DNA of 49,996 nt. Source: a virus. Where the stretch lies: the IMG/VR virus record IMGVR_UViG_3300007513_000064, positions 1 to 49,996 of that record; one strand, 5' to 3'. The notes under the pieces are model-generated. The model saw only the letters and a program-made list of their open reading frames with translations. It was not told where the DNA came from and made no database searches. Below are positions 2,045-29,879 of the stretch, piece after piece; position 1 is the stretch's first letter, and each line of letters opens with the position of its first letter. Position numbers and translations under genes: made by a program.

Positions 2045-3967
2045 ATGTCTAAGTCATTCAATTTGGATCAGCTGACTGAAGGCATCCGCCAGAGAAATCT
2101 TGGAGGACAGAATAAGCAGCTGGTTGAAAAGTGGTCCCGTACGGGCCTGCTTAGAGGCCTCGACGGAGTTCACCGCGAGAACATGGCTCGAATCCTGGAA
2201 AATCAGGCCGGCCAAGTTCTTAAGGAGGCTTCTTCGATTTCGACCGGTGGCGGTAACCTGACTAGCTCGGGCGACCTCCGCGGTTTCACCAATATCGCAT
2301 TTCCGATCGTGCGCCGAGTTTTCGGCGGTTTGATCGCGAATGAGCTCGTTTCCATCCAGCCCATGAGCCTGCCTTCTGGCCTGCTCTTCTATCTGGATTA
2401 TACCTACGGCTCGACGCAGGGCACCGGCGGTCTTACCGGCCAGGGCGCTGCATATAACACTGGTTCGTCCATTTACAGTTTGCCTACGGGCAAGGGTGTT
2501 CGTTCTGGTTCGAAAGCCGTTGGCGGCCTTTATGACCTTGCCGGTCAGGGCTACTCGCGCGTGTACTCGTCCTTCGCTTGCACAGCGATAGCAGACCTGT
2601 TGCTTTCTGGCGCAGTTCGTGGTACGAACGGCCAGATTACTGCTGGAAATGTTGCAGAGGCAACCGGTTCTGATGGAAAGTACTTACAGTTCGATCCGCA
2701 GATCACTCTGAGCATCGAGAACAACACGACCCCGGGTGGATCTGCTGGTCCTGGTGTGTATTCTTTCGTGGTCGTCGACGCAACCAATCTTAGTAACGTT
2801 GATGGTACTATGGTCAAAGAGGTTGCTTTGCTATCGGACGTGGTCGGCACAGACCCAGCCGGTATTGTCGTCGTTGGGAATGATACAGATGGCAACCCCA
2901 TTCAAGAAGGCAATAACGTTCTGAACGTACGCCGCTTGAATCAGCTAGGTACGGTTGCTGGTAGTAAGTTTACTGTGGATCCCTTTGCAGACGTTGCGGC
3001 AACCAATACTGGTATTCTCATGGTCGTTTCCGGTACACTTACCGGTGGCCTGGCTGACGGTATCGCTGTAGCATCGGTTGCTTTCCCAATCTCCGCGGAC
3101 CTCAACTCTGCTGCTGGTACGGCTTCTACGCTTGTCATTCCGGCTTTCGAGTCTAACTTTGCCGCGACGCCGTCCCCGGCGATTCCTGAGATCGACATCA
3201 AGATCGAGGCTCTTGCAGTGGTCGCGAATACTCGCAAGCTGCGGGCCAAGTGGTCGCCAGAGCTCGCACAGGACCTGAATGCTTATCACAGCTTGGATGC
3301 TGAGGTAGAGCTTACTCAGATTCTTTCAGAGCAGATTGCTCTGGAGATCGACCGAGAGGTTCTGAACGATCTTCTGCAGGGAGCTCAGGCTGCTAACTAC
3401 TACTGGTCGCGTGCGCCCGGTAAGTTTGTCAACAAGGAGACTGGCTCTGAGGTCCTCCAAACAGGAGCCACGGCGCCTGGACCTGCCTGGCGCGGCACTG
3501 TTCGCGAGTGGTACGAGACTCTGGTTGAGACCTGCATCGATGTAGGTAATCAGATTCACCGTAAGACTCTGCGCGGTTCTGCCAACTTCATCGTGGTCGG
3601 TCCTGACGTGGCTACCATTTTGGAGTCTTCGGTGTTCTACAAGCCTAACTACACCTTAGACGGTGATGGACAGGTGAGTCAGCCCATGGTGATCGGTGCA
3701 GAGCGCGTCGGTAACCTTAGCAATCGTTTCACGGTCTACAAGGACCCTTACTTCCCTCGGAATAAGGTTCTCGTCGGCTTCAAGGGCGGTAGCTACTTAG
3801 AGACTGGCTATGTGTATGCTCCGTATGTGCCGCTCATCGTCACTCCGACGATCTTTGCGCCTGAGGACTTCACCCCGCGTAAGGGTGTCATGACTCGCTA
3901 CGGCAAGAAGATGGTTCGCGCTGACTTCTACGGCACTGTTACGTGCCTGGACATGAGCGTCATCTAG
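2045..3967 (+). CDS. Major capsid protein (T4 gp23-like)
   Basis: This 640-residue protein is the main shell subunit. Seen: after an N-terminal helix (about residues 25-60) comes QVLKE61|A62, which fits the prohead protease consensus (Leu/Ile-x-Glu) and falls almost where T4 gp23 is cut (after Glu65). It is followed by a Gly/Ser-rich linker, then FPIVRRVFGGLIANEL and a QPMSLPSG motif like the T4 QPMNSPTG. The C-terminal domain (about 400-640) carries the usual gp23 features around LDAEVELTQILSEQI and FKGGSYLETGYVYAPY. It is about 120 residues longer than gp23; the extra length is a Val/Ala/Gly-rich beta-type region at about residues 195-385. Strong AAGGAG upstream of the ATG and a strong terminator after the stop fit high expression. 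Confidence 0.93.
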   Translation: MSKSFNLDQLTEGIRQRNLGGQNKQLVEKWSRTGLLRGLDGVHRENMARILENQAGQVLKEASSISTGGGNLTSSGDLRGFTNIAFPIVRRVFGGLIANELVSIQPMSLPSGLLFYLDYTYGSTQGTGGLTGQGAAYNTGSSIYSLPTGKGVRSGSKAVGGLYDLAGQGYSRVYSSFACTAIADLLLSGAVRGTNGQITAGNVAEATGSDGKYLQFDPQITLSIENNTTPGGSAGPGVYSFVVVDATNLSNVDGTMVKEVALLSDVVGTDPAGIVVVGNDTDGNPIQEGNNVLNVRRLNQLGTVAGSKFTVDPFADVAATNTGILMVVSGTLTGGLADGIAVASVAFPISADLNSAAGTASTLVIPAFESNFAATPSPAIPEIDIKIEALAVVANTRKLRAKWSPELAQDLNAYHSLDAEVELTQILSEQIALEIDREVLNDLLQGAQAANYYWSRAPGKFVNKETGSEVLQTGATAPGPAWRGTVREWYETLVETCIDVGNQIHRKTLRGSANFIVVGPDVATILESSVFYKPNYTLDGDGQVSQPMVIGAERVGNLSNRFTVYKDPYFPRNKVLVGFKGGSYLETGYVYAPYVPLIVTPTIFAPEDFTPRKGVMTRYGKKMVRADFYGTVTCLDMSVI

Positions 3968-14674: not shown

Positions 14675-15163
14675 ATGGCAGAAACACTTCCAGTCACTGA
14701 CATGCTGCCCAACAAGTTTGAGCCAAAGCGCAAGTTTCGTTGGGTATTTGCAATCGAGGGCGTCGATGCCTTCCTCATCAAGACGGCGGCTCGTCCGACC
14801 ATCACCATTGAGGAGCAAGAGATTCCCTTCATGAATTCCACGAGATACATCGCAGGTAAATCCAAGTTTGAGACGTTAGCTGTGACGTTGCATGATCCTA
14901 TTGCTCCTTCGGGCGCTCAGCAGGTGATGGAGTGGGTTCGAACTCACTTTGAATCCGTTTCGGGCCGGGCCGGTTATGCTGACTTCTATAAGAGAGATTG
15001 CCAGCTCAAGCTGCTCGATCCCGTTGGGACGGTAGTGGAGCTGTGGGACATCAAGGGTGCATTTTTGACGAATGCGGGGTTCGGAGATCTAGATTACGGA
15101 TCGTCAGAACCAGCTGACATTTCGTTAACGATACGTTTCGATAACTGCGTCCTGCAGTACTAG
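14675..15163 (+). CDS. Tail tube protein (gp19-like)
   Basis: This 162-residue protein is the subunit of the inner tail tube; T4 gp19 is 163 residues. Seen: FEPKRKFRWVFAIEGVDAF near the N-terminus, the ARPTITIEEQEIPFMNSTRY strand and loop (about 39-58), VTLHDPIAPSGAQQVMEWVR (about 71-90), and a C-terminal beta sheet with LWDIKGAFLTNAGFGDLDYG (about 122-141) and ISLTIRFDNCVL. This is the standard order of the tube beta-barrel. An AAGGAGTAG site precedes the ATG, and a terminator follows 20 bases after the stop, closing the neck-sheath-tube unit. Confidence 0.93.
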   Translation: MAETLPVTDMLPNKFEPKRKFRWVFAIEGVDAFLIKTAARPTITIEEQEIPFMNSTRYIAGKSKFETLAVTLHDPIAPSGAQQVMEWVRTHFESVSGRAGYADFYKRDCQLKLLDPVGTVVELWDIKGAFLTNAGFGDLDYGSSEPADISLTIRFDNCVLQY

Positions 15164-15313: not shown

Positions 15314-16168
15314 GTGAGCAACGAAACTAGAGAAGGCAACGAAGTATTTTCTGCTGCACAAGCACAACAGGCCGGTTTTCAGACTAAAAACGTCATGGCT
15401 GACGACTTCGGATTCGAAGTTCCAGTCGAGGCTGTGCCCCTCCCGTCTAATGGTGTCGTCTACCCTGTGGACAACCCGTTGCATGGTTTGGAGACACTAG
15501 ACATCAAGGCTATGACCGCTCGCGAGGAAGACATTCTTACTTCTCGCGCTCTGATCAAAAAGGGGACGGTAATTACCGAGCTCATCAAGTCTTGTTTAGT
15601 CAACAAGAGCATCGATGTCGAAGACATGTTGGTGGGAGATCGCAATGCCATCATGACTGCGTTGCGCATCACCGGCTATGGCTCTCAATACACAGTTGAA
15701 GTCGACTGTCCGGACTGCGGCGAAAAATCCAAGCAGGATTTTCAATTGACAGAACTTCCGATCAAGAGATTAGAGATACCCCCTGTAGCTGAAGGCGCCA
15801 ACTTGTTCGAATTCAAGTTGCCAGTGACAAAGAAGAAGGTGCATTTTCGTTTTCTGACTGGCCACGATGAGACCGATATTACTGTTACTCAGGATCGCCG
15901 CAAGAAGATGGGTACGCAGGCGGACAATTTGGTCACTACTCGGTTGCAGCATCAACTCGTTGCTGTCGAAGGCGTCAAGGATCGCTCCAAGATCAACATG
16001 TTTGTGCGCAATATGCCAGCCAGAGATTCCTTGGCGCTGCGCAAACACGTGGATAAGCACGAGCCCGGCATCGATATGAAGCAGTGGATGGATTGCACGA
16101 ACTGCATGGAATCATCGGAGGTTCGGCTCCCAATGGGCGCCTCGTTTTTTTGGCCTGATCTCGAGTGA
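15314..16168 (+). CDS. Baseplate hub assembly / tail chaperone-type protein (gp26-like)
   Basis: This 284-residue protein matches the T4_baseplate (gp26-type) pattern: PLPSNGVVYP (about 42-51), LDIKAMTAREEDILTSRALI (about 62-81), then ITGYGSQYTVEVDCPDCGEK with a CxxC pair (about 118-137), and a second CxxC (CTNC, about 261-264). The four Cys could bind one zinc. It starts with GTG after GAGGAGTAAG. It lies between tube and tape measure, the classic place of the tail assembly chaperone pair. Its last codons cross a run of seven T (16145-16151); a +1 (or -2) shift there would bypass the stop at 16168 and fuse it to the next frame, giving a product of about 367 residues. Confidence 0.8.
   Translation: MSNETREGNEVFSAAQAQQAGFQTKNVMADDFGFEVPVEAVPLPSNGVVYPVDNPLHGLETLDIKAMTAREEDILTSRALIKKGTVITELIKSCLVNKSIDVEDMLVGDRNAIMTALRITGYGSQYTVEVDCPDCGEKSKQDFQLTELPIKRLEIPPVAEGANLFEFKLPVTKKKVHFRFLTGHDETDITVTQDRRKKMGTQADNLVTTRLQHQLVAVEGVKDRSKINMFVRNMPARDSLALRKHVDKHEPGIDMKQWMDCTNCMESSEVRLPMGASFFWPDLE
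16145..16151 (+). other. Candidate +1 (or -2) translational frameshift site, T7 run
   Basis: The zero frame reads TCG TTT TTT TGG and stops 15 bases later. After a +1 shift it reads TTT GGC CTG ATC and stays open to 16415. The joining segment (FFGLISSDKEVFLQQIFILM) is protein-like and leads directly into the downstream protein, which has no ribosome site near its own first ATG or TTG. A sequencing error in the homopolymer is the alternative. Confidence 0.6.
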
Positions 16169-16202
16169 CAAGGAAGTATTCCTACAACAAATCTTCATTT
16201 TG

Positions 16203-16415
16203 ATGTATTATGTGGGCTTCACGTATGGCGAAGCCTATGCACTACCCATATGGCAAAGAGTTTGGTTCATAGAGCGTGTTAACGAAGAGTTCAAGCGCGC
16301 TGCTGAACAAAACTCTAATGCTAGTCGAGCTGCCCACGACAACACCTCAGAGCAGCGAGCCATGGCCGGCAGAGCCCGCTCCCAGGTGCCAGCCAAGTTG
16401 AGGCGTTTTACATAA
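16203..16415 (+). CDS. Small tail-assembly protein, probably made mainly as a frameshift extension (gp51-like position)
   Basis: As a separate gene it would be about 70 residues from the ATG at 16203 (TTG at 16200 also possible). Seen: YYVGFTYGEAYALPIWQRVW, then WFIERVNEEFKRA, and a C-terminus ending RSQVPAKLRRF; small proteins with this F-T-Y-x-E-A-Y-x-L-P-x-W signature occur next to gp26-like genes in large myoviruses. The frame is open upstream back to the T run at 16145, and the only purine-rich stretch (AAGGAAG at 16170-16176) is too far from the first start codon. I therefore favour expression as the C-terminal part of a fusion with the gp26-like protein, as in G/GT tail chaperones. Confidence 0.65.
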   Translation: MYYVGFTYGEAYALPIWQRVWFIERVNEEFKRAAEQNSNASRAAHDNTSEQRAMAGRARSQVPAKLRRFT

Positions 16416-16479: not shown

Positions 16480-19400
16480 GTGGCTAATGATTTAGGCCAA
16501 CAACTAGCTCTTCAGCAGCAGATCAACAAAACGCTGAAAGAGCAATCTGGGCTCCTCACCCAGCAAGCCAGGTTGTTGAGTCAACAGGCTGGTTACGCCA
16601 AAGACATGTGCAATGCTCTAGATTGTGGCAACTTAGAAGACCTGACCAGTCAGACCCAAAAACTAAATGACGGCCTGAGTGAAGCGGCCGACAGAGCGGA
16701 CACTGCCGCTGACTCCATGTCAGGCCTGGACAAAGCTGCTCAAGACGCTGACAAATCCTTTAGAAACAAGGCGATAGGTGTAGGAGCTGCAGCAGGCGCT
16801 TTCCGAGGCTTCATGGGAGCCATAAAATTGGGGGCTGGGCTACTCGGGGGCTTGCTCCAGATCGTCGGCAGGCTGGCCGGTTCTTTCATGAGCTTGACCC
16901 AAAGCATCCTTGCTGCTCCTTTCAAGATGCTGACTGCACTGATCCAAATGTCAAAGAAGGGCGGCATCGATCCGTTGCGTGAGGCTTTAGAGGAAGTCCG
17001 TGAACAATTTGGCAGCCTTGCGACCAACGAAGGTGCATCGCTAAAAGGCTCTGTTAAAGAGATGAGGAAGGAGATGCACAACATGGCTGGCACAGGCCTG
17101 GCTATGTCACGCGTCTTCGAGTTCGGCCGAAAGGGGCTAGCAGAATTCGTCAAGGAGAATCAGGAGCTGGCTGAGGCATTAGGGACGGCATTTTCTTCGA
17201 TGGCAGAGAGTCTCAAGGGCAACTACCTTGCTTTATCCATGTATCGGAAAGGCCTCGGCCTCACGAACGAACAGCAAGCTCTCTCACTCAAGCTAGCAAG
17301 AGATCGCGGGAAGGACCTTGCGGCTGAACAGGATGCTTTCGCTTCGATGGCGATCCAGATGGGCAAATCGTTCAATATCAACGCAAAGGTCGTGGCTAAA
17401 TCCATGGCGAAGATGCAGGAGGACGTGAGCAGCTTCGGTCACATGTCTGCGAAGCAGTTTGCCTCAGCTGCAATCTACGCGCACAAGCTGGGAGTCGAAA
17501 TCGAAGATCTCGGCGCTATGTTCGACAAGTTCGATAACTTCGAGAACGCGGCCAAGGGTGCTGCCGAGCTAGCACAGATGTTTGGGATGAACATCGATCC
17601 GATCAAGATGCTAAAAGCAGAAGATCCGGCAGCGATGATGGACGATCTACGGAAGGCCTTCTTTGCTACTGGCCGCTCCTTGCAGGACTTGAATCGCCAC
17701 GAAAGGAAGCTGTTAGAACAACAGACGGGTTTGAAGGATGCTGCTTTAGAAGCGGCCTTCGGTCTGGGCAACCAAGGGCTGGCATACTCAGACATCCAAG
17801 CCGCCTCAGAAGATGCTGAGAAGTCACAGCTCACACAGGCTGAGGCAATGAAAGAGCTGGCCGATTCCATCAAGAAGATGACTCGCGACGGCAGCCACGA
17901 TTTTGAGAGCTTCTTCGACGCGTTCACCAAGGGCTTCACAAAGGGCATCGAGCGATCACGCGAGTTCCGCAAGATCATGAGGAATCTGCAGAGATCATTG
18001 TGGACAGTATATCGAGCCGGCATTCGCGTAGGTCGAGCATTTGTCAGGTTCTTTCCAGGCATAAAAGAAGTCGCCAAAGGTTTAGGCGACTTGTTCAACC
18101 CAGCCCGTTTCAGGCGACTGGCTAAAAGAGTGACAGGCATCTTTAAGACGTTCTTTAAAGACATGCATCAGAGTCCTCAAAAGGCCGTAAAGAAGTTATT
18201 TGACAGCCTCCTCAGCATGTTTGAAGGCCATTTTGGCTCTTCCGGAGTGCACCTCAAGCGCATCGTTCAAGGCTTTCGAAAGTTCTTCGTTGCTCTGGGA
18301 GGAATGGTCTCCGGTTTGATTCCGATCATCAAGGAAAAGATCGCAGAAGGGCTAGAAGGCATCATCGATCTCATCGTCAATCCTCCTGGGGCTGTTCTAG
18401 GCAAGGCAGCCAAGGCTGGCCAGAGCTTCGTCCTCGACGTCTTCGGGCCCATATGGGAGGCTCTTACCGGTAATCCTGAACTGAATAAGCGTATCTTCGA
18501 TGGCTTGAAGAAGCTAGGTAACATGATAATGAAGAAGCTCAAGGCAGTCGATTGGAGCCCGGTCACCACTGTGCTGGAAGGCATCATGATCAAGATGATG
18601 CTGTTTTCCGTGATGTCGACGCTCGGAGGCAGCCTCGTGGGTGCCATCGCTGGTGGATTAGGTGGTTTTTTTAAAGATGTCCTCACTCGCGGTGCTGCGC
18701 AAGGAGCAGCCGCCGCCGCGCCGGCAGTTGCCGGGTCACTCGCATCTGGAATGAGCCCTGCCAGACAGGGCGCTGAGGCCGCCTTCGCCGGACTCACCGG
18801 TCGCGGTCCGACGGCTGCTGTAGCGGGTACTATTCCTACGAGTGCCGCCCTGCAAGCTGCTGAAGCTGCTGCGCCCAATCCAGCTCAGTCTGCCAGTGCC
18901 GGGCTTAAGGTCGGCCAGATGCTAATAGTCGTGGGCGCGATGATCGTTGCTCTCGCCGCCGTAGTGCTCATTTATAAGAAAGCAAATCTCAAACCGATGG
19001 ATGCGGTAGGGATCGCTGCGCTTCTGGTGGCCGTAGCAGGCGCCGCAGCCTTGATGTCGCCTGCGTTGGTGGCCTTGGATGCCGCTCCGCCGCTATCGAA
19101 GAGCATCATTCCGAAGCTGGCGGTTCTGGGCCTGGTCATTGGAGGGCTGGGGTATATGGGCGTCGCCCTCGCCAAGGCATTGGCAGACATGAAGAATCCA
19201 CCGAGCCTCGCCGCCATCGGCGCTTGGGGAACCATGATGCTGGGAATGGTGGGAGTTTCGATCCCGCTGCTCATCGCAGCCAACATTATCGGTAGCCTGG
19301 CTGAGGCTGGCGGCGCTGCAGCGATCAAGGGTTTGGTCGTCTTAGGGGCAGTGATGGCCGGTCTAGGCGTGGTAGGCCTCCTCATCGCTGGGATGCTGTC

Positions 19401-21123
19401 CTTGATTCCTAACCCTGTGGGGGTAGGCATCCTCATGGATGCCTTGGTCTCCATCATGTATGCCACCATGATCATGGTACCGGTCGCAGCCGCTCTTGGA
19501 ACGGTTCTTCTCGCCTCGGTCGGCACTGCTGGGGTGGCGATCGCTGCCGGCTTTGCTGCACTCGGGACCTTGGCGACCGGTCTGATAATCGGTCTTCTCC
19601 CTGCAGTCGCATCGTTATCGGTAGCTAGCAGGCAGATCGGTGACCCAAAAAAATTCCAAGCCGTCGCCGACCTCTTTATCAAAATGATGGACACAGCAGG
19701 CAAATTCATGGCATCAGCAGCCAAGATCGCCGAAGGCCTCAAGCCACCGGGGCTCTCAGCCCAGAAGATCGAGAAGAACATAGGGGCTTTTGGCGAGCTC
19801 ATGGACAACATGCTGAAAGTCGGCATCCACCAAGTTATGGACAAGGTCATCCTTCTGGCCAAATCAGAAGGCATATCCGAGCAGGGGCTGAAGGCAGTCA
19901 GCGGCGTCACCAGCGTGCTCGGTAACGTGGCTGCATTGATGAACGCCCTCAGCCCTACGAGCGGCGAGATGGCAGCAGTGAAGGCAGCGATTGAAGGCGA
20001 GATAATCTCAGGAACCAGGCCTGAAGAGATGATGCAGATGATAAACAATCGTCTGAAGATGGTGTTAAAGGGCCTGCCTGGAGTCTTAGATTCTCTAGGG
20101 ACCCAGATGAGCGTATTGATCACAAAGATCCAGCCGGCGATCGAAGCAGTCTCTAAGAAGGACGTCAAACCCAAAGCTCTCAAGGCTTTAGGTGCCATTC
20201 TTACGTCGACGTTCGGTGCAATGGGCACTCTGATATCAGCAACAGCCTCGATCGCAGATTCCATGTTTAAACGCGGTGAGGACCCATCTAAGAACATGCT
20301 GTTCTTCAAGGACATGGTCAAAAATATGGTCTCCTCCTTTTCCGATATGGGACCTGGCATTCGGAAGTTAGTTACCTCAGTCCTAGAGATCGCGCAGGAT
20401 CCGGTTTTAGGTCAAAAGGGGCTGCTAAAGAAGGTCAAAGTGCTGTCGGGAGTACTCGAGGCCACTGGGGAGATTGCACAACTGTTTTCTGCAAAGGGCC
20501 CGCTTGGATACGTAGAAGGGGAATTTGAGGAGGCTCTAGGGCTGACGAAGATAGATCAGATGGCAGACATCATGGGCCAATTCCGGACCAAGCTGTTGCA
20601 ACCCGGCGGGCCATTACAGCTGATGATCAACGACCTCGGCGGCTTGAAGCTACCAAAAAAGGGCGCGACTCGTCGACTAAAGATCCTGACCAGGATCATG
20701 GGCCTTTCGAACGATCTGGGGGCTTCGGTGGCAGAGATCAGCCAGAAAGACATAAAGGCCGCCACCATAAGCGCGAACATGGGGAGCATCAAGTCGGCCG
20801 TAGGCATCTTGGACAGCATGCTGGAAGTGGACCACCTTAAGAACCCCAAGAAGGCCCTCGCAGTCGCTAAGTCCATCCAGACGCTGAACGGGCTTCTGGA
20901 CGGCAGCGTCTTGGCACAGACAGTGGAAGACGTCAAGCCGTTCGCCGGCGGTGATTTGCGTGTGACCCACAATCTGCCTAAAACGAGCATCAATTTGACG
21001 GTCAAGATCGATACGGAAGAGTTTGCTAAGAAGATGATAAAAGTTGACTTGGATCGTGGAGCTGACGGCCGTACAAGCCTCAGGGCGTTTAACGATCAAG
21101 GCATTGAGAAGAGAGTGCAGTAG
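16480..21123 (+). CDS. Tape measure protein
   Basis: This 1547-residue protein sets tail length and occupies the tube lumen. Seen: an N-terminal Gln/Leu-rich coiled coil (about 5-80), a long helical region with repeated Lys/Phe-rich amphipathic helices (about 430-640), an Ala/Gly-rich hydrophobic stretch with several membrane-length segments (about 810-1055), and a helical C-terminal third. Length, position after the chaperone-type gene and hydrophobic centre are diagnostic. Using the usual 0.15 nm per residue, the tail would be about 230 nm (estimate). The start is GTG at 16480; no good Shine-Dalgarno is visible, so the start is less certain. Codon bias leaves long antisense open frames across this gene, which are shadows. 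Confidence 0.9.
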   Translation: MANDLGQQLALQQQINKTLKEQSGLLTQQARLLSQQAGYAKDMCNALDCGNLEDLTSQTQKLNDGLSEAADRADTAADSMSGLDKAAQDADKSFRNKAIGVGAAAGAFRGFMGAIKLGAGLLGGLLQIVGRLAGSFMSLTQSILAAPFKMLTALIQMSKKGGIDPLREALEEVREQFGSLATNEGASLKGSVKEMRKEMHNMAGTGLAMSRVFEFGRKGLAEFVKENQELAEALGTAFSSMAESLKGNYLALSMYRKGLGLTNEQQALSLKLARDRGKDLAAEQDAFASMAIQMGKSFNINAKVVAKSMAKMQEDVSSFGHMSAKQFASAAIYAHKLGVEIEDLGAMFDKFDNFENAAKGAAELAQMFGMNIDPIKMLKAEDPAAMMDDLRKAFFATGRSLQDLNRHERKLLEQQTGLKDAALEAAFGLGNQGLAYSDIQAASEDAEKSQLTQAEAMKELADSIKKMTRDGSHDFESFFDAFTKGFTKGIERSREFRKIMRNLQRSLWTVYRAGIRVGRAFVRFFPGIKEVAKGLGDLFNPARFRRLAKRVTGIFKTFFKDMHQSPQKAVKKLFDSLLSMFEGHFGSSGVHLKRIVQGFRKFFVALGGMVSGLIPIIKEKIAEGLEGIIDLIVNPPGAVLGKAAKAGQSFVLDVFGPIWEALTGNPELNKRIFDGLKKLGNMIMKKLKAVDWSPVTTVLEGIMIKMMLFSVMSTLGGSLVGAIAGGLGGFFKDVLTRGAAQGAAAAAPAVAGSLASGMSPARQGAEAAFAGLTGRGPTAAVAGTIPTSAALQAAEAAAPNPAQSASAGLKVGQMLIVVGAMIVALAAVVLIYKKANLKPMDAVGIAALLVAVAGAAALMSPALVALDAAPPLSKSIIPKLAVLGLVIGGLGYMGVALAKALADMKNPPSLAAIGAWGTMMLGMVGVSIPLLIAANIIGSLAEAGGAAAIKGLVVLGAVMAGLGVVGLLIAGMLSLIPNPVGVGILMDALVSIMYATMIMVPVAAALGTVLLASVGTAGVAIAAGFAALGTLATGLIIGLLPAVASLSVASRQIGDPKKFQAVADLFIKMMDTAGKFMASAAKIAEGLKPPGLSAQKIEKNIGAFGELMDNMLKVGIHQVMDKVILLAKSEGISEQGLKAVSGVTSVLGNVAALMNALSPTSGEMAAVKAAIEGEIISGTRPEEMMQMINNRLKMVLKGLPGVLDSLGTQMSVLITKIQPAIEAVSKKDVKPKALKALGAILTSTFGAMGTLISATASIADSMFKRGEDPSKNMLFFKDMVKNMVSSFSDMGPGIRKLVTSVLEIAQDPVLGQKGLLKKVKVLSGVLEATGEIAQLFSAKGPLGYVEGEFEEALGLTKIDQMADIMGQFRTKLLQPGGPLQLMINDLGGLKLPKKGATRRLKILTRIMGLSNDLGASVAEISQKDIKAATISANMGSIKSAVGILDSMLEVDHLKNPKKALAVAKSIQTLNGLLDGSVLAQTVEDVKPFAGGDLRVTHNLPKTSINLTVKIDTEEFAKKMIKVDLDRGADGRTSLRAFNDQGIEKRVQ

Positions 21124-28400: not shown

Positions 28401-28684
28401 TACCGATGGCCATAATGCCAATGAGTCTGACGTTAGAAACGTACGGTTTTCCGCTCTTCGAAATCGGTCAGCAGTATTTTCTAGACATGACGACCAACAC
28501 TACTGCTGATAATTTTTATGCGGTGACATCGGTGACGCACGCAATTGAAGCAGGCCGGTTTGTTTCTACTGTGGAAATGAGTACAATGAGCTCATACGCT
28601 AAGTGGAAGCCGACGACTGCTTGGCTGCAAAAACTAGCCCTGGCTGGAGCTATAACCGCTAATGAAGGAAAATCTTCTAGTTAG
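25454..28684 (+). CDS. Large baseplate hub protein (gp27/gpD-like C-terminus, probable)
   Basis: The start chosen is ATG 25454 (MASPALKRAINDIGRYF), overlapping the LysM-like stop; the open frame back to 25346 reads through that gene and is unlikely. The 1076-residue product has an N-terminal polar region, a beta-rich domain (about 140-470) with PFMDVQVMVKDQDGF and MSYKSADMELVLHDRTRLG, a Pro-rich linker (about 565-590), and a C-terminal domain whose end (YAVTSVTHAIEAGRFVSTVE, about 1024-1043) resembles hub proteins of the gpD/gp27 type. It probably forms the central hub together with the preceding two genes. Its final codons overlap the polymerase frame by up to 23 bases. Confidence 0.65.
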   Translation: MASPALKRAINDIGRYFGIRAADAFLLSVIGPGDESIEDLLDPPQADSQNVIADIINSISGQGNATSVTALLEYISTVVKDDAAAANLLNDSMSITLDSPGYLTVDAANLPLNAPTVTTTAGADETQGMFKPEASKDFYTVADYVGEGWEQCPVHVIQVFPAIQNIANSDTDAAALFMNAVPTLDLSRAMPFMDVQVMVKDQDGFAPGNQTLRLSLGRHLLGSSLADEDTVSQSILTAPDVEGPMMGKDEAGKPEPYWTAATMEAFTTPQTMVPTNADGSLLRNQGHGPYDAPYDPFRPMLSLNSFSLNAINTQGMMSYKSADMELVLHDRTRLGSITPLVAPTELAEVALKITYGWAHPDGSDSYNGAQALNRLSDADSNRFADLINSLRVTEDFAVQNSSFNFEEDGSVRISLKLSTKGAAAANKIDITLPLVADAFNDLRRLTDSIDEQLRAARKDRDKVGKLNVPTVVQRMTSARAVTSIKPEDIKELKKFNRDAKDGDLQAIGRTIEKLLKEAGSHKKTKRTAINNLMEHLKSTPDPFLRAVGDYGGPGKGECAIRKKTTSVPPPSPPPPRAPAAPPPQGSGDIGDPLAGERRRQAAAAQAAMDALASAAAPTKKTFWGWTSFAGARTAKALAYKGDGKSRFVSLGKLLSALVAGPMAHTSMYDEIQLVFYAFNDSAAALYDCNIAQFPIDCSDLKKRLEERFDASGTMSIAAFLQLISTYYLTDEGSQGYGFGKVYGGRKKGNARQRVFESNYVHSRGKNKGQPKLKQIQSKKEEVMRALYGMEAADPSCVFKPPQISCRFEAVPMREEYSGAFRKKTLLKIHVFDRKCSGAESLMSVLDSFSGHSVARMLTREPRSPRSTKHQAIYAEQFNVLSSPPLEIIKSVPPMTAEVAKTLGLKDKDLEKTLIAGCYSVSEGSTARIKEVFSSMFPAFIYGGLNSGIISAKLASLNNQPLTTLGIVGRGKTDPDASDVDDGLPMAIMPMSLTLETYGFPLFEIGQQYFLDMTTNTTADNFYAVTSVTHAIEAGRFVSTVEMSTMSSYAKWKPTTAWLQKLALAGAITANEGKSSS

Positions 28685-29879
28685 TGTATTTTTATCGAGC
28701 GGTAGCTACAATGGTTGCATGGATGTATACATGCAGTTTGAGAATGCAGAAAGAATTCTTTTGAAGAGTGTTCCAAGCTCTCCTGAGCTCGAAGTGAGCC
28801 TATCACCTACAGGACGCTCAGAAGTTGCGGATTATTTCGAAATTCTAGGAATGTCTGACGCCGAAGTACTCCCTCCAGCGTATAAGCAACTGTGCACCCA
28901 TTTAAAGTTTACCACTCTTGAATTGCTACATGCTGTTCCCGAACAGAAGCTCAAAGATCATTTAAAAAAAGTTGTCAATTCTCTTAGCGATATTTTCAAC
29001 ACTTCGCGCAATGCGGAGTATTTTGGCAATTATATTCGCATAAAAAAGTTTCTGGCATCTTTCCAGCGGGCCCGGATTGATGTTGTTGCTCTCAAAAAAA
29101 TGATTGAAATGAGCAAGCATGAAGTAGTAAAATCCACGCTGAGCAGTTTTTTGGCCGATGATACAGGCCGAGTTGAATCTGTCGTGTATTCCACCACGGG
29201 GACAGCGACTGGCCGATTGACTGTTGCGTCTGGGCCGCAAATATTGACTGCTCCTGCCGAAGTGAGAAAATGTTTTCGTAGTCGCTTCGAAGCGGGTAAA
29301 ATATTGCAGCTGGACATCGTCTCCGCAGAGCCGAAGCTGGCACTTTATGCCGCAGAACAGCATCCACCGAAGGACGTATACAATTACATTGCAAACTCCA
29401 TCCTTGAAGGTAAAGTTTCCAGAGCCCAGGCAAAACTGATTACTCTCTGCGCTCTTTACGGCCAATCTGCAAGAATGCTCAAAAGAAAATTGCCTGTTGG
29501 TGTGAATCCGAAGGAAGTCATTAGAAAGACTAAAAAATATTTTAAAAGTGAACAGTTGGAAGACGCTCTTCGGGCAGAAAGCACGAATGGGCTGTTTAGA
29601 AGTGTCTTAGGAAGACCACTTCAAGTTCCGGATGACAAGTCGCACTTCTATATCAGCTATTACTTACAAAGCTCAATCGCTGAGGGCGCGATCCTGATGT
29701 TTGGGCGGTTTATCGAGACTGTTAGCATGGAATGCGAACCGTTATTTATCATTCATGATGCTTTGATAGTTGATTGCAGTGATGAGGCTGCCAAAAAGCT
29801 GCTGAGTGGGGATGGTATTAAAGTTGTTTTAGGAGAATGGGAATTTGACGTTGATGTCAAGGTTCTTGAAGATATTTAA
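28662..29879 (+). CDS. Family A DNA polymerase-like protein without exonuclease domain
   Basis: Numbering from ATG 28662 (405 aa; ATG 28719 is an equally possible start because the first 19 residues look atypical). Polymerase motifs are present in order: TGRLT (about 184-188), motif A Asp218 with Glu223 (LQLDIVSAEPKL), motif B Arg254, Lys258, Tyr266-Gly267 (RAQAKLITLCALYG), motif C His365-Asp366 (IHDALIVD). These align with E. coli Pol I Asp705/Glu710, Arg754/Lys758/Tyr766 and His881-Asp882. Leu262 replaces Phe762 and Ala replaces Glu883. The N-terminal 170 residues are helical with no 3'-5' exonuclease motif. It is far smaller than replicative family A enzymes, so it may be a repair, translesion or end-processing polymerase. 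Activity is inferred from both metal Asp being present. Confidence 0.8.
   Translation: MKENLLVSVFLSSGSYNGCMDVYMQFENAERILLKSVPSSPELEVSLSPTGRSEVADYFEILGMSDAEVLPPAYKQLCTHLKFTTLELLHAVPEQKLKDHLKKVVNSLSDIFNTSRNAEYFGNYIRIKKFLASFQRARIDVVALKKMIEMSKHEVVKSTLSSFLADDTGRVESVVYSTTGTATGRLTVASGPQILTAPAEVRKCFRSRFEAGKILQLDIVSAEPKLALYAAEQHPPKDVYNYIANSILEGKVSRAQAKLITLCALYGQSARMLKRKLPVGVNPKEVIRKTKKYFKSEQLEDALRAESTNGLFRSVLGRPLQVPDDKSHFYISYYLQSSIAEGAILMFGRFIETVSMECEPLFIIHDALIVDCSDEAAKKLLSGDGIKVVLGEWEFDVDVKVLEDI

Follow-up and report, generated by a model that had tools for sequence, protein, structure and literature searches.

Tail assembly chaperones made by ribosomal frameshifting are known, and -1, -2 and +1 shifts occur in different phages (PMC5009743). 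The locus described here lies in a window (the whole stretch of DNA that was analysed) of 49,996 nt, taken from virus record IMGVR_UViG_3300007513_000064, in which a gp26-like open reading frame (ORF) is overlapped at its end by a second frame that lacks an early start codon. This arrangement raises the question of whether the two frames belong to one gene and, if so, how they are joined. The reading in which we place high confidence, judged from sequence and comparison, is that of a single gene for a short and a long tail assembly chaperone, in which a +1 slip at TTT.T would yield a fusion that carries the small domain encoded in the second frame.

Gene context and the two overlapping frames

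The features on which the argument depends are the following:

14675..15163, + strand: tail tube protein (context), phrog_4542 tail tube, E 3e-32
15314..16168, + strand: gp26-like tail/hub assembly chaperone, short form, 284 aa, GTG start, C-terminus FFWPDLE
16117..16122, + strand: GGAGGT, a Shine-Dalgarno-like motif inside the gene and 25 nt ahead of the slip codon, probably stimulatory
16145..16151, + strand: T7 slip run, in which P-site TTT 16148-16150 would re-pair on TTT 16149-16151 (+1)
16151..16153, + strand: A-site TGG (Trp) in frame 0, found in 122 of 131 loci; after the slip, GGC 16152-16154 would be read
16152..16415, + strand: +1-frame extension, putative gp51-like helical domain of 87 aa (+1-frame conservation and purifying selection; AF2 three-helix model; cyanophage gp51 match)
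16166..16168, + strand: TGA, stop of the short form from the sequence; its type and position differ among relatives
16480..21123, + strand: probable tape measure protein, 1547 aa (context), by length and position

Tail sheath and tail tube genes lie upstream of the gp26-like ORF. The 1547-aa protein encoded downstream has no profile match, and it is therefore called a tape measure by its length and position. The chaperone gene thus has the tail tube gene on one side and the probable tape-measure gene on the other, as in the lambda G/GT type, which is the classic location of frameshifted tail chaperone pairs (PMC5009743). Elsewhere on the same contig, the window encodes a T4-type major capsid protein Gp23 (2045-3967, PF07068) and a family A DNA polymerase (28662-29879, PF00476, just over the cut-off).

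The first ORF matches PF12322 T4_baseplate with 60.7 bits (curated cut-off 24.5) as well as the baseplate hub family phrog_150. Structures were modelled with AF2 separately for the first ORF and the small domain. The model of the first ORF has a mean pLDDT of 90 (high confidence), and the viral folds that it matches best include the baseplate hub protein of SP-15 and T4-like hub assembly proteins; a PDB fold search with this domain returned nothing significant. The small domain is modelled as three helices, and a fold search with it gave no significant match. Sequence searches of cultured phages, PHROGs and PDB sequences with the small protein gave nothing useful. Its score against DUF6760 (PF20546) is 20.7-21 bits, under the family cut-off of 27, so that on sequence it is not a member of that family and at best related to it; a search for literature on DUF6760 found nothing useful. 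In the annotated records examined, the extension had either been overlooked or entered as a free-standing ORF.

The first-pass annotation had pointed to a T7 run near the end of the gp26-like frame, and to an open +1 frame without a ribosome site of its own. Both observations hold. The run is read in frame as TTT TTT TGG CCT inside the gp26-like ORF, whose protein ends ...MGASFFWPDLE, and the TGA starts 14 bases past the run. Open from 16080, the +1 frame runs to a TAA at 16413-16415 and reads RFFGLISSDKEVFLQQIFILMYYVGF... across the junction. Its earliest ATG, GTG or TTG is the TTG at 16200, followed by the ATG at 16203, both within a conserved helix, and neither is preceded by a ribosome site in the window.

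The slip site and the direction of the shift

Relatives were gathered mainly with the first ORF alone as query, giving 133 distinct loci, 16 of which came from the one search that used the +1 frame across the junction; the small domain was then located by its own profile, whichever frame held it. It lies at +1 in 131 of the 133 loci, and each of these 131 has a tetramer that lets the P-site tRNA re-pair at +1 (TTT.T, CTT.T or TTT.C). Sequence and comparison establish both the slip site and the missing start, and they give strong support to the earlier proposal of a programmed frameshift in the tail-chaperone pair: at the conserved TTT-T site ribosomes very probably skip one base, both in the window phage and in 131 of its 133 relatives.

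The junction codons are TTT TTT TGG in most loci, TTT CTT TGG in 13, TTC TTT TGG in six and TTT TTT TAC in two. TTT.C or T6 variants occur in Bacillus SP-15, Listeria LIS04, Streptococcus GXN1, Streptomyces BRock, LR756508 and a Paracaedibacteraceae MAG contig. When the loci were grouped into 100 clusters at about 75% identity, the slip codon was TTT in 90, CTT in 10 and TTC in none (P about 3e-13 for zero TTC, clusters treated as independent), while within the gene bodies 27% of the Phe codons are TTC. Because CTT changes the amino acid yet keeps YTT.T, it is the nucleotides that are preserved. The preceding codon is also biased to TTT (89 to 7). On the other hand, the stop of the short form varies in both position and identity, and is therefore not part of the signal. 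No conserved RNA structure was found downstream, where mean z-scores lie between 0 and -1 and the consensus fold is empty.

According to this model, most ribosomes would terminate at 16166 to give the gp26-like short form. Some would slip +1 at TTT.T (16148-16151) while TGG awaits Trp-tRNA in the A site; tRNA-Phe would re-pair on UUU and decoding would resume at GGC. The long form would then consist of gp26, the junction FFGLISSDK and the gp51-like domain, with a junction peptide spanning GASFFGLISSDK. We infer the slip event, its efficiency and the ratio of the two forms. By analogy with lambda G/GT, the part common to both forms would bind the tape measure and the extension would recruit the tube protein (PMC5009743), a division of labor that may load the tube onto the tape measure. 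In pairs of the lambda type both forms are made and neither is present in the virion, and the same would be expected here.

The first-pass annotation had left the direction as +1 or -2, a choice that the relatives decide for +1. A -2 shift, such as that known in phage Mu (PMC5009743), would give FFFGL in place of FFGL, with three rather than two Phe at the junction, and the T7 run of the window and of most relatives does allow re-pairing at -2 as well as at +1. However, cognate re-pairing is available only at +1 in TTC TTT TGG (six loci), TTC TTT CGN, CTG TTT CGC and AAC TTT CTA; neither TTC TTT TGG nor TTT CGN can re-pair at -2, and the 13 loci with TTT CTT TGG would require a first-position G-U pair to do so. 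Re-pairing at -2, which a Mu-type system would need in all members, is thus not general in this group, whereas +1 re-pairing is possible at every site of the 131 loci. These variants make the -2 shift very improbable, and a mixture of +1 and -2 at the T7 sites is possible.

A seven-T run, which is present in the window and in most relatives, could also let RNA polymerase slip, or could have been misread, so that the frames would be joined in the transcript or only in error. The same arrangement, however, persists where the T runs are of three or four (TTTCTTTGG, TTCTTTTGG and CTGTTTCGC), and it is these broken runs that exclude both transcriptional slippage and the -2 shift as a general mechanism. 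A read error at the homopolymer, which had been raised as a possible refutation, is ruled out by the recurrence of the arrangement in 131 distinct loci. We regard polymerase slippage or sequencing error as the least credible of the alternatives to ribosomal +1 slippage.

Both loci in which the small domain is not at +1 lack a re-pairing tetramer. L113 (3431-3694) has TTC TTC TGG, and its small domain lies at +2, which may reflect an indel in the assembly or a variant that shifts by -1. In LR756511 (L050 3230-3430), a huge-phage relative, the first ORF is longer and the small protein lies in frame +2 with its own ATG (TAATGGATG); it seems to be made from this TAATGG start, as a natural frameshift-free version of the pair.

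Start codons and the upstream Shine-Dalgarno-like signal

Rather than being fused to gp26, the small protein could be made apart, from its own start codon, through internal initiation or termination-reinitiation. Such coupling is seen in actinobacterial injection-system relatives, in which a GTG start with a Shine-Dalgarno (SD) sequence lies on the stop of the first gene (GGGGGAATCGTGACG); LR756511 has its TAATGG, and an internal GGAGGT is present upstream of the junction. Against this, in 68 of the 131 loci the +1 frame offers no ATG, GTG or TTG as far as codon 10 of the small domain. Only 15 of 131 combine a start codon close to the small protein's N-terminus with a 4-nt SD-like match, the kind of evidence that the first-pass annotation said would overturn its proposal. 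Moreover, purifying selection acts ahead of the first possible start. Twenty-six loci contain no +1-frame start from the preceding stop to codon 16, and in their codons after the gp26 stop, single changes counted over pairs of related sequences comprise 1135 synonymous and 330 nonsynonymous in the +1 frame, a ratio and not a test. This selection before codon 16 indicates that the region is read as +1 protein before any start. Separate initiation is accordingly an unlikely source of the small domain, although a somewhat better candidate than either of the alternatives considered above, and translation through the junction by a +1 slip is preferred.

The internal GGAGGT is itself conserved. Synonymous constraint is found at codons -11 and -10 (TCG GAG, then GT) and is missing at -9 to -3, and anti-SD pairing shows a sharp peak at codons -11/-10. 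In 64 of the 100 clusters, at least 6 nt of TAAGGAGGT are present at -48 to -19; control windows give 0-7, and 300 synonymous reshufflings never give more than 21. The distance from the end of the SD to the slip codon is mostly 25 nt, and 19 nt in another clade. The SD was considered as an initiation site and rejected, as it has no consistent start downstream: in 31 of the 64 clusters that conserve it, no start is present in any frame 4-14 nt downstream. We infer that the distant SD assists the slip by stimulating frameshifting. The SD of dnaX lies at a spacing of about 10 nt, which the spacing here does not fit, and we know of no frameshifting role for an SD 19-25 nt upstream.

Known frameshift systems and the T4 gp26/gp51 pair

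The closest parallel in gene order is lambda gpG/gpGT, where an overlapping ORF pair, the second without a start, lies between the tube and tape-measure genes and gives a short and an extended form (PMC5009743), as predicted for the window. The gene position, the overlapping start-less second ORF and the conserved slippery site at the junction are all found here. Unlike the -1 system of lambda, the window has a +1 arrangement, a different and larger family (PF12322), a TTT.T/CTT.T site and a far-upstream SD. In its site, the locus is more like prfB (RF2), which slips +1 on CTTT, with TTTT variants also occurring, and in which the P-site tRNA likewise slips on CTT.T or TTT.T next to a slow A-site codon, in a gene with an internal SD (PMC12421855). 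The YTT.T slip codon is shared with prfB, whereas the A-site TGA and the SD about 3 nt upstream are not: here the A-site codon is TGG (Trp), the SD lies mostly 19-25 nt away, and the gene is structural and without autoregulation.

For HSTV-2 and for haloviruses of the HF1 group, a +1 shift at TTT CGC, immediately ahead of the tape measure, has been annotated or predicted, the HF1-group shift at TTT-CGC being a proposal (PMC7230728). Unlike the group of the window, these cases comprise one or a few genomes, with no SD described. The TTT CGC site of HSTV-2 (L182 15480-15500) is of the same type as that of Streptomyces phage BRock. The HSTV-2 chaperone was considered as a family member and rejected, since it does not match PF12322. 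Mu, also a contractile-tail phage, reaches the same relative frame but by -2 and at a different slip site (PMC5009743), and phage 0305phi8-36 has a two-gene version without a frameshift (PMC2147016).

T4 makes gp26 and gp51 from separate genes, as had been noted at the outset; gp51, however, is not the small protein that it was taken for, but a 249-aa PF12322 paralogue of gp26. Both T4 proteins match PF12322, and among the phages tested only T4 has this family in two separate genes, of which one is short and the other an in-frame fusion that needs no frameshift. Where a frameshift phage gives a scorable match, it has a single PF12322 gene (in one phage matched in two same-frame pieces); the records of Flavobacterium phage immuto and Microcystis phage Mel-JY01 have no Pfam PF12322 match. 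In T4-like cyanophages, too, a single PF12322 gene is present, and a small gp51 of 53-57 aa comes after it. The link through this protein began as a lead from a non-significant fold hit and was then tested with sequence profiles. Cyanophage gp51 of 57 aa matches the frameshifted small domain with an hhalign probability of 95 (P 4.6e-8); its match to columns 208-245 of the T4 gp51 family has a probability of 97 (P 4.8e-10). Each is a single pairwise comparison with a two-sequence query profile, and direct comparison of the small domain with T4 gp51 was not significant. These matches support cyanophage gp51 as the counterpart of the small domain and, by way of that protein, link the small domain to the extension at the C-terminus of T4 gp51. 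Since cyanophage gp51 matches both, the T4 pair gp26 and gp51 has the look of a short and a long form that arose by duplication.

In each of the 57 distinct cyanophage-type loci (for instance, S-PM2, L193 172-1064; P-HM1, L192 178-1058; and L194-L273), gp26 ends T_TTT_TTC and gp51 occupies an open -1 frame, and the small gp51 has no start codon of any kind in 21 of the 57. T_TTT_TTC has the form of the classic -1 heptamer. The two proteins are annotated as separate genes in S-PM2 and P-HM1, and the junction looks like an unannotated -1 frameshift. In the open-access literature, preprints aside, no report was found of this cyanophage frameshift, of frameshifting in the PF12322 family or how deeply it is conserved, of the distant SD, or of gp26 and gp51 as the short and long pair of T4.

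A wider proposal can be drawn from these comparisons, for which we hold belief and doubt in even balance: T4 would be no exception to the short/long rule, an ancestral gp26-gp51 pair having been joined by +1 (this group), by -1 (T4-like cyanophages) or by in-frame fusion and duplication (T4), and YUU_UGG with an SD mostly 19-25 nt upstream would be a new type of +1 signal. The old view of T4 as a phage without a tail-chaperone system is now open to test, and gp51 gains a concrete and testable role as the long form of the tail chaperone. The same gene pair would have been reached through frameshifts in both directions, fusion and duplication. The group also offers a large, naturally varied set of +1 sites, in which P-site slippage would precede a sense codon and the distant SD is unexplained.

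As read from their sequences, contractile injection systems rely not on a frameshift but on a coupled start or on fusion of the two parts in frame. In the actinobacterial loci L155-L165 (junction near locus base 1490), the GTG start of a DUF6760 gene overlaps the stop of the PF12322-like gene and is accompanied by a strong SD (GGGGGAATCGTGACG), and in two Bacteroidota loci (L171-L172 859-1623) both parts lie in one fused ORF.
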